Source: Alphaproteobacteria bacterium (GTDB lineage Bacteria; Pseudomonadota; Alphaproteobacteria; VGDZ01). Taken from it: a stretch of DNA of 64,000 bases. The notes beneath the pieces are model-generated. The model ran no database searches, was not told the origin of the DNA, and saw only the letters and a program-made list of their open reading frames with translations. Positions 26,861 to 63,376 of this stretch are shown here, piece after piece. A program made the translations under genes and the position numbers. The stretch is taken from the NCBI GenBank assembly GCA_016869515.1, contig VGDZ01000005.1, positions 1 through 64,000 on the forward strand. The letters are read 5' to 3'. How positions within the stretch are numbered: the first letter of the stretch is position 1; each line of letters opens with the position of its first letter.

Positions 26861-27333
26861 AGCCGCTGCTGGCGGATCCCGCGACCTGGCTCGCCACCTG
26901 GTTCGGCGTCGGGCTGCTGCCCGGGCCGCAAGGAACCTGGGCCTCGCTGGCAGCCCTGCCCTTTGCCGCGCTGTTCCTGTCCTGGGGCGGCGCTTTCGTA
27001 CTGCTGATGGCGACGGCGCTGATTGCGCTGGTCGGCATTTGGGCCAGCGACCGGGTCGCGGCCCGCATGCGGATCGAGGATCCGGGCGCGATCGTGATCG
27101 ACGAAGTGGCCGGTCAATGGCTGGCGCTCGCCATTCTCGCTGCGGCGGGAACCGCCGACTGGATGGGCTATGGCTTGGCCTTCGTCCTGTTTCGCGCCGC
27201 CGACATCGTCAAGCCCTGGCCGGTCAGCTGGGCCGAACGCGCATTGCCCGGAGGGCTCGGGGTGATGGCCGACGATCTGGTGGCCGGGATCTATGCCGGC
27301 GCGCTGGCGGCAGCCTTGCGGGCCTGGCTGTGA
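26857..27333 (+). CDS. pgpA: Phosphatidylglycerophosphatase A
   Basis: [39 protein letters not shown] start with overlap. Confidence 0.95.
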
Positions 27334-27863
27334 CGCCCGACCTGATCGCCGCCGCCGATCGCTTGCTGCGGGCCTGCCGCCAGCGGCGCGTGATGTTGGC
27401 GACTGCCGAGTCCTGCACCGGCGGCCTGATCGCAGCGCTTTTGACCGAAGTCGCCGGCAGTTCGGACGTGGTCGAACGCGGCTTCGTGACATATTCCAAC
27501 GCCGCCAAGACGTCGCTTTTGGGCGTGCCCGAGGCACTGCTGGCGGTCCATGGCGCGGTCAGCGAACCGGTCGCCCGCGCCATGGCCGAGGGTGTATTGG
27601 CCGCTGCGCCGGCCTGCGGCCTGGCCCTGGCCGTGACCGGCATCGCCGGACCTTCCGGCGGTTCGGCCGAGAAACCGATCGGGCTGGTGCATGGGGCGGC
27701 GGCAAGGCGCGAAGGCGGCCTGGTGCTGCACCGCCGCCAGGTTTTTGCCGGCGATCGCGGCGCCATTCGCCGCGCAGCCGCCTTGGCGGCGCTTGAACTC
27801 GGGGTCGAGATTCTAGGGCATGATCGATCGGTCTCGAACCGCGAGGTTCAAGACCGATCGTGA
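27330..27863 (+). CDS. CinA C-terminal family nicotinamide-nucleotide amidohydrolase
   Basis: MLATAESCTGGLIAALLTEVAGSSDVVERGFVTYSNAAK; AVTGIAGPSGGSAEKPIGLV; last ~13 codons lie in a palindromic repeat. Confidence 0.92.
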   Translation: MTPDLIAAADRLLRACRQRRVMLATAESCTGGLIAALLTEVAGSSDVVERGFVTYSNAAKTSLLGVPEALLAVHGAVSEPVARAMAEGVLAAAPACGLALAVTGIAGPSGGSAEKPIGLVHGAAARREGGLVLHRRQVFAGDRGAIRRAAALAALELGVEILGHDRSVSNREVQDRS

Positions 27864-27873
27864 ATCAAGCCCT
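27815..27873. repeat. 59-bp palindromic element (copy A), at the 3' end of cinA(C)
   Basis: AGGGCATGAT-CGATCGGTCTCGAACC-GCGA-GGTTCAAGACCGATCG-TGA-ATCAAGCCCT; related to 62442-62500. Confidence 0.85.
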
Positions 27874-60689: not shown

Positions 60690-60766
60690 TGGCGCGCCCG
60701 GCAGGATTCGAACCTGCGACCCCGGACTTAGAAGGTCCGTGCTCTATCCAACTGAGCTACGGGCGC
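60690..60766 (-). tRNA. tRNA-Arg (anticodon TCT)
   Basis: GCGCCCGTAGCTCAGTTGGATAGAGCACGGACCTTCTAAGTCCGGGGTCGCAGGTTCGAATCCTGCCGGGCGCGCCA; cloverleaf with encoded CCA. Confidence 0.97.
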
Positions 60767-61112: not shown

Positions 61113-61189
61113 TGGTCGGGGCGACTGGATTCGAACCAGCGGCCTGCTGCTCCCAAAGCAGCCGCTCTACCAGGCTGAGCTACGCCCCG
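61113..61189 (-). tRNA. tRNA-Pro (anticodon TGG)
   Basis: CGGGGCGTAGCTCAGCCTGGTAGAGCGGCTGCTTTGGGAGCAGCAGGCCGCTGGTTCGAATCCAGTCGCCCCGACCA. Confidence 0.97.
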
Positions 61190-62193: not shown

Positions 62194-62219
62194 CGCGGTT
62201 TGATCTGAATCAAACCGCG
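62194..62219. promoter_or_regulatory. FNR/FixK-type (anaerobox) dyad
   Basis: CGCGGTTTGAT-CTGA-ATCAAACCGCG; core TTGAT-N4-ATCAA at 62200-62213. Confidence 0.8.
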
Positions 62220-62274
62220 ACAGCGCCCTTCTCCGCCAAATCGAGCCCTCGGCCCTTGAGGGGGAGTCGCCGCC

Positions 62275-62367
62275 ATGGACCATGCTTGGTTTCTCTATCT
62301 GGCACTGTCCGCCTTTTCCGCCTTCGCCGTCGCCGTGATCTATTGCGAGCGGACCTGGAAGCGCTAA
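62275..62367 (+). CDS. Unannotated 30-aa single-TM small protein
   Basis: MDHAWFLYLALSAFSAFAVAVIYCERTWKR; AGGGGGAG Shine-Dalgarno 8 nt upstream; below the ORF-track length cutoff. Confidence 0.55.
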   Translation: MDHAWFLYLALSAFSAFAVAVIYCERTWKR

Positions 62368-62426
62368 ACCGCGATCGGTTCATAGCGAATCACGGCCGCG
62401 ATTCCCTATGAACCGCGGATCGCGGT
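62368..62426. repeat. 59-bp palindromic element (copy C)
   Basis: ACCGCGATC-GGTTCATAGCGAATC-ACGGCCGC-GATTCCCTATGAACC-GCG-GATCGCGGT. Confidence 0.8.
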
Positions 62427-62441
62427 CCAGAGCGGCATACG

Positions 62442-62500
62442 AGGGCATGATCCGCGATCTGTCTTGAACTCTATGGTTCAAGACAGATCGATCATGCCCT
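62442..62500. repeat. 59-bp palindromic element (copy B), same family as 27815-27873
   Basis: AGGGCATGAT-CCG-CGATCTGTCTTGAAC-TCTATG-GTTCAAGACAGATCG-ATCATGCCCT. Confidence 0.88.
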
Positions 62501-62563
62501 GAGCCGATTTGAGCGGCTTTCCGTGACTTGACCAAATTCCCGGCGAGGCAGAGACTCGCCGGG

Positions 62564-63376
62564 ATGCGTCGGCTTGCGATTCTGGCGTTGGCGATCGGCC
62601 TGGTTTCGGCCACGATGGCGGCCGAGCGCGAGCCGGTCGATCTCGAATTGGTGCTGGCGATCGACGTGTCCGGTTCGATCGACATGGAAGAAGCGCGGCT
62701 GCAGCGGCAGGGCTATGCCGACGCCATGCGCCATCCCGACGTGATCTCGGCCATCCGCGGTGGCGAGTACCAGAAGATCGCGGTCAGCTATTTCGAATGG
62801 GCCGACGACTACCACAAGTACCAAGTGCTGGAATGGGTGGCGGTCGGCGATCGCGCCAGCGCCGAGCTCTGGGCCGCGGCCTTGCTTGACGCCCCGACGC
62901 GACCTGGGCGGCGGACCTCGATTTCGGGCGCGATCGACTACGCCATGCCGCTTTACGACCGCAATCCCTTCGTCGGCCGGCGCAAGGTGCTGGACATCTC
63001 GGGCGATGGACCCAACAACTCGGGACGCATCGTCACCTTGGCGCGCGACGCGGCCTTGGCCAAGGGCATCACCATCAACGGCCTACCGATCATCAACGAT
63101 CGGCTCAACCCGGGCGGTTTCCCGGTGATGAAGGATCTCGATGTCTATTTCGAGGGCTGCGTCATCGGCGGGCCCGGCGCCTTCGTAGTGGTGGCCGAGA
63201 ACTTCGCCGCCTTCGGCCAGGCGGTGCGCAAGAAGCTGATTCTGGAGATCGCCAACCGCCAGCCCAGCCCCTGGGATCGACCGGCGCGGTTCAGGCGGGC
63301 GAGTTACGCCGGCGGCTGCGACATCGGCGAGCGCCAGAGCCGCGATTTCTGGCAGCGCCGGTGGGGCCCAAACTGA
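62564..63376 (+). CDS. DUF1194 VWA-like secreted protein
   Basis: Signal peptide MRRLAILALAIGLVSATMA; VDLELVLAIDVSGSIDMEEARLQRQGYA. Confidence 0.9.
   Translation: MRRLAILALAIGLVSATMAAEREPVDLELVLAIDVSGSIDMEEARLQRQGYADAMRHPDVISAIRGGEYQKIAVSYFEWADDYHKYQVLEWVAVGDRASAELWAAALLDAPTRPGRRTSISGAIDYAMPLYDRNPFVGRRKVLDISGDGPNNSGRIVTLARDAALAKGITINGLPIINDRLNPGGFPVMKDLDVYFEGCVIGGPGAFVVVAENFAAFGQAVRKKLILEIANRQPSPWDRPARFRRASYAGGCDIGERQSRDFWQRRWGPN

Follow-up and report, generated by a model that had tools for sequence, protein, structure and literature searches.

RIME, attributed to Osteras et al. (1995), is reportedly a repeat of ~106 bp that contains two large palindromes. The CIR repeats, attributed to Chen and Shapiro (2003), are said to be alphaproteobacterial intergenic repeats of more than 100 bp, with an inverted-repeat organization and GANTC sites. 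Among insertion sequences, IS711 belongs to the IS5/IS427 group. In Brucella, the Bru-RS palindromic repeats are tied to IS711, which targets YTAR and duplicates the TA (PMC2266754, PMC3163539). Rhizobial and other alphaproteobacterial genomes hold dozens of palindromic repeats, and RIME, the AB and C palindromes, and the Sm repeats are described as being of unknown function (PMC2573895). The element analyzed here falls within this already known class. It was found in a window of 64,000 nucleotides (contig VGDZ01000005.1, positions 1 to 64,000) from a draft alphaproteobacterial genome of 3.69 Mb (166 contigs, 97% complete).

Two bulged palindromes in one composite unit

A sequence-only reading of the window had picked out three 59-bp palindromes (A, B, and C), each with a 3-nt bulge on one arm, and had placed C and B in tandem, 15 nt apart. 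The palindromes are real and far beyond chance (fold z of −4.7 to −9.1; for DNA folds, A −8.15, B −9.04, and C −4.74, with none of 200 dinucleotide shuffles folding equally well). Each of the three hairpins consists of an 8–11 bp outer stem, the one-sided 3-nt bulge, a 15–16 bp inner stem, and a small loop. RNA folding of A, B, and C agreed with DNA folding, and in RNA form the hairpins are stable, at roughly −35 to −43 kcal/mol. With the boundaries chosen in that reading, the lengths of 59 bp and the gap of 15 nt are right, but 59 bp is not the biological unit: C and B together make up one composite of 133 bp, and A is a solo unit of 57 bp.

When B and C were used as queries against the source genome, each returned at least 40 copies, and the flanks of these genomic copies revealed that C and B nearly always co-occur, at a fixed spacing. 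C, which could have turned out to be unrelated to any other repeat, is therefore a repeat in its own right, nearly always found beside B. Profile searches of a 460-kb sample (twenty genome stretches plus the window) located elements at 22 places, with weak matches at a few of them, from which we extrapolate a whole-genome copy number of ~177. At 72 distinct loci that were resolved, 52 elements were C+B composites, and 41 of these measured exactly 133 bp between their TA boundaries, so that length does not vary freely. These 41 align without gaps at a mean identity of 93%. Given the fixed pairing of C and B, the constant 133-bp length, and the gapless alignment, we conclude that C and B in the window are halves of one element. 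At 133 bp and an estimated ~177 copies, the element is short, non-coding, and dispersed, as is a MITE.

In the window, the composite occupies 62367–62499 on the plus strand and is built from the C hairpin module (62367–62427, plus strand), a 15-nt spacer, and the B hairpin module (62443–62499, plus strand). On its left is TA (62365–62366), half of the YTAR target described below; on its right is TG (62500–62501), a mutated form of the TA that occupies this position in most copies. Copy A (27816–27872, minus strand) is a solo B module with TA on both flanks. The bulges of a composite both point toward its center, lying on the 3′ arm in C (mostly TGA or CGG) and on the 5′ arm in B (mostly the complement, TCA or CCG; CCG/CGC in the window copy). 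They were retained in ~90% of composite modules and absent from 7 of 16 solo modules (P = 0.0002), so the expectation that copies keep the 3-nt bulge held for composites and failed for many solo modules. The outer ends of the composite are alike (G-R-S-C-R-Y-GATCG), with GACCGCGATCGG and GGGCATGATCGA identical at 7 of 12 positions, and the inner ends lack the terminal TA, having CCAG and CGAG in place of CTAG. Elements also cluster, with two to three lying within ~550 bp at L039 1224–1774 and L027 595–1063, a local build-up of insertions.

Selection on the folded form had been proposed from the sequence. In the composite alignment (A2), paired cells amounted to 96.4%, and changes on both sides were seen at nine pairs (40 cells, compared with a mean of 8.8 in shuffles, none of 500 of which reached 40). 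Sliding the partner arm abolished this pattern. However, most of the double changes trace to a single replaced block in the inner stem of C (TTCATAGGG became TTTGCATGG, together with its complement), a change common to a subfamily, and independent events are therefore few. Arm-to-arm correction of the palindrome could also generate covariation, as an alternative to selection. Thus, the covariation expected under the proposal is present, but by itself it is no proof of selection on an RNA fold.

Sites of the form GANTC (CcrM-type) occurred 2.85 times per composite versus 0.52 times in shuffles, at A2 columns 21, 34, 51, and 83, and the TGA/TCA variant of the bulge itself makes a GANTC. Such enrichment would suit a CIR-like platform for chromosome organization through methylation or protein binding, whose GANTC palindromes would be bound by a putative nucleoid or cell-cycle factor. 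We regard this as very improbable, since many copies have a CGG/CCG bulge and no GANTC there, and two of the GANTC sites are the arms of one stem and hence not independent of each other.

Placement between genes and at stop codons

Genes were called with a simple codon-composition script trained on codon-position GC, which gave a coding density of 91%. The elements lay in 28 convergent, 27 co-directional, and 6 divergent contexts, with none inside a called gene, versus 34 convergent, 223 co-directional, and 51 divergent gaps in the background of the 460-kb sample (Fisher P = 2e-9). Repeats are thus strongly enriched between convergent genes, the placement that the sequence-only reading had marked out for an inventory.

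Genes reaching a composite had their stop exactly at the terminal TA/G (slashes mark element boundaries) in 30 of 34 cases, where one-third would be expected (P = 5e-11). This was true for both the C end (17/18) and the B end (13/16), and in eight composites both stops of a convergent gene pair fell on element boundaries. Composite flanks take the form YTA/G...C/TAR. On the left, the quads among the 52 composites were CTAG (33), TTAG (4), CTAA (3), and GTAG (1); on the right, they were CTAG (24) and CTAA (17). The outer base varies within Y on the left flank and within R on the right flank, which points to YTAR as the target and to duplication of its TA. The orientation of this target is skewed (CTAA 14 vs. 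TTAG 2; P = 0.004).

A census of the 460-kb sample, whose counts include some ends of the elements themselves, gave 411 YTAR sites, with 168 in genes, 155 intergenic, 82 at one stop, and 6 at a shared stop. Despite the 168 sites available there, no element lies within a gene, and this sparing of genes, together with the supply of YTAR, accounts for the coincidence with stops. Even so, shared stops remain over-represented (8/52 composites vs. 6/243 sites; P = 0.0007).

Enrichment between convergent genes, stable RNA hairpins, compensatory changes, and fixed length would all be expected of a resident element under selection as a bidirectional transcription barrier or a protector of mRNA 3′ ends between convergent genes, with mobility ancient or secondary. 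This explanation seems unlikely to us, as YTAR stop targeting and gene avoidance account for most of the placement, the elements have no T-run and no terminator-like site, the covariation is mainly one subfamily block change, and strains of relatives differ in whether the element is present or absent (see below). An intrinsic terminator was rejected outright: neither hairpin is followed by a T-run, and no site was found in 62200–62700.

Both window loci can be described in the same terms. At the composite, the TAA stop of a small ORF (62275–62367) is formed by the left TA flank plus the first base of the element; this ORF was not among the called genes and lies outside the 30/34 count. Its product of 30 residues (MDHAWFLYLALSAFSAFAVAVIYCERTWKR), which had no Pfam match, is probably a small membrane peptide. 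Copy A lies where a cinA-like gene and a histidine kinase gene converge, and the TAG stop of the kinase gene is an element boundary. The cinA-like gene (27330–27863) runs out of frame into the left end of copy A and stops at the bulge TGA, with the last ~15 residues of its product encoded by copy A. Two minus-strand tRNA genes lie near the composite (60693–60766 and 61116–61189). No known Rfam RNA family accounts for the element, as the only matches in the window at gathering score were two tRNAs; weak matches to animal and plant miRNA fell far below the cut-off.

Relatives and their empty sites

The outer-stem pattern of B occurs in 41 copies in the source genome and in 23 copies in G361, a second genome from the same class. 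An example from the latter reads GCATGATC-CGGAAAAG...TTTTCCG-ACAA-GATCATGC, with the outer stem as in B and a one-sided bulge. Sequences of this type matched 359 plasmid records, mostly from Rhizobium and Bradyrhizobium. The rhizobial elements are two-hairpin composites of 99–112 bp with one-sided bulges, and in the two Rhizobium copies that were folded, the bulges point inward and the GAT-TCA bulge context seen in the source genome is present in the second hairpin. The source genome and the rhizobia belong to the same class, and the architecture is common to both. Besides the architecture, the window and rhizobial elements share only the outer stem GCATGATC and the GAT+TCA bulge context, their sequences otherwise differing; the putative homology rests on these three features, without similarity over the full length.

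Among these relatives, empty and filled states of the same site could be compared (L262 vs. L256; L257–L261 vs. L254). At rraA, the gene in the empty state (R. leguminosarum and other strains) ends ...CCGCTAAGGC, with the target CTAA at its stop, and the matching place in filled strains reads ...CCGC-TA/GAGC...GTTC/TA-AGGC. In Bradyrhizobium sp. 195 (empty), a pair of convergent genes share a four-base overlap, TTAG; in Bradyrhizobium sp. 186 (filled), the element separates this pair, the TA is present twice, and each stop is restored at an element end. With one TA in the empty site and two in the filled site, these comparisons show that the rhizobial relatives inserted at YTAR with duplication of the TA. 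In deposited annotation, ten relatives had a gene overlapping the element, and in nine of these the CDS ended precisely on the boundary stop (P = 0.0004).

The window composite itself had no match in 57 relatives of the class or among plasmids, and the inner hairpins of C and B had none among viral contigs. A scan of 85,462 genomes with the C hairpin pattern returned at least 66 stretches, none with a palindromic inner stem among the matches listed, and the C profile found nothing significant in these pattern-matched stretches. Within the genomes, plasmids, and viral contigs searched, the window family appears to be confined to the source lineage. Two further loci, L247 and L248 (genomes G226 and G123), carry 42-bp near-perfect palindromes flanked by TA (CTAGGGCATGATCAT...ATGATCATGCCCTA), which could be a minimal solo relative that shares the ends and comes from a different family within the class.

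Mobilization and comparison with known repeats

Taken with the flanks of the source genome's own copies, the empty sites of the relatives lead us to infer that these copies, too, have been mobile. The repeat is probably a non-autonomous, MITE-like element that inserts at YTAR with TA duplication and restores the stops it interrupts, most likely by means of an IS5/IS427-type transposase. Paired palindromic modules in inverted arrangement would insert at YTAR and duplicate the TA. Read inward, the outermost base on each side is G, and TA plus either end yields TAG; insertion into a single stop, or into the 4 bp that serve two convergent genes as a common stop, would thus leave the reading frames closed, and neighboring genes would go unharmed because the element end rebuilds the stop. 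As the inward arms carry the 3-nt insertion and no longer have the terminal TA, transposon ends would be provided by the two outer arms alone, and the composite would consequently move as a single unit. The transposase would be supplied in trans or would since have been lost.

An IS5/IS427-type (IS711-like) enzyme is favored because IS711 combines a YTAR target and TA duplication with its tie to Bru-RS, and because an 844-bp DUF4096 insertion sequence in another member of the class (L221 1407–2250) is flanked as CTA/GGG...CCC/TAG, the target signature of the composites. In the draft source genome, we found no gene for Y1_Tnp (PF01797; positive controls matched), DDE_3, DUF4096, or DDE_Tnp_1. 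An IS630-type mobilizer from this genome is accordingly rejected for want of DDE_3, and the DDE_Tnp_1 and DUF4096 searches likewise yielded no IS4/IS5 catalytic domain and no IS427-type N-terminal domain. The enzyme would thus have been lost, would be unassembled, or would belong to another family. Neither an autonomous element with the ends of the composite nor IS5-family terminal inverted repeats identical to those ends were found, the latter search turning up only the class signature (duplication of TA or TNA, with ends GGG.. or GAGC..). An autonomous partner would be recognized by the end sequences TA/GACCGCGATC or TA/GGGCATGATC. One observation counts against the model: the skewed target orientation (CTAA vs. 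TTAG) is not predicted by a symmetric DDE end pair.

A left flank that is mostly C, with few T, among TA-intact copies would fit a REP/REPIN-like element moved as single-stranded DNA by a Y1 transposase (RAYT or IS200/IS605) that reads a CTA foot together with the bulged hairpins. The bulged terminal hairpins would fit such a transposase as well, and REP termini likewise provide TAG stops to genes (PMC3733652). We nevertheless give this alternative little weight: the genome has no Y1_Tnp gene, a GTAG tag is present in just 1 of 52 left quads, and the right flank is R in nearly all copies. The change from one TA in empty Rhizobiales sites to two in filled ones also argues for duplication, although an element that carried its own terminal TA would look alike. 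A RAYT-type REP in particular is rejected, with no Y1_Tnp gene found in the draft genome and no GTAG tag. The sequence-only reading was right to see a repeated, structured element of preserved geometry, and a DNA-level repeat was one of the identities it put forward; the RAYT/REP and terminator versions are not upheld.

If the stop-restoring mobile element is the correct reading, the placement between convergent genes is accounted for without invoking a regulatory role, and the model gives a clear prediction of the type of transposase to seek. The empty sites of the relatives make part of the question of repeat function testable, namely movement, TA duplication, and survival through the rebuilding of stops. 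In the open-access literature, we found no description of a two-hairpin, inward-bulge, TA-duplicating unit with empty sites at shared stops, which does not establish priority, and a literature search with the literal stem sequence returned nothing relevant. We give somewhat less than an even chance to a broader proposal, that the widespread alphaproteobacterial intergenic repeats with two hairpins all belong to a single superfamily of stop-restoring mobile elements, in which inward bulges would mark the arms that are not ends and shared convergent stops would provide a harmless niche.

The comparison with known systems is one of descriptions. REP/REPIN elements with RAYT are similar in being high-copy extragenic palindromes in inverted pairs with termini that supply TAG (PMC3733652), but the window element is larger and lacks the GTAG tag and the Y1 transposase, and in its relatives the TA is doubled at YTAR. 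The likeness to CIR, compared by description only, lies in the intergenic location, a length of more than 100 bp, inverted repeats, and the GANTC enrichment of the window composite. Bru-RS1 and Bru-RS2, also compared by description, are palindromic intergenic repeats of ~103–106 bp tied to IS711, with its YTAR target and TA duplication; in contrast, no IS711-like gene was found in the source genome. RIME resembles the window element in being intergenic, present in many copies, alphaproteobacterial, and built from palindromes. The rhizobial relatives (99–112 bp, two hairpins), again compared by description only, look like members of the RIME class, as intergenic two-palindrome mosaics, whereas the window element differs from RIME in its length of 133 bp, its stems, and its lineage within the class. 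Set beside these systems by description, the window element is a putative divergent relative of the alphaproteobacterial intergenic mosaic repeats, RIME, CIR, and Bru-RS.
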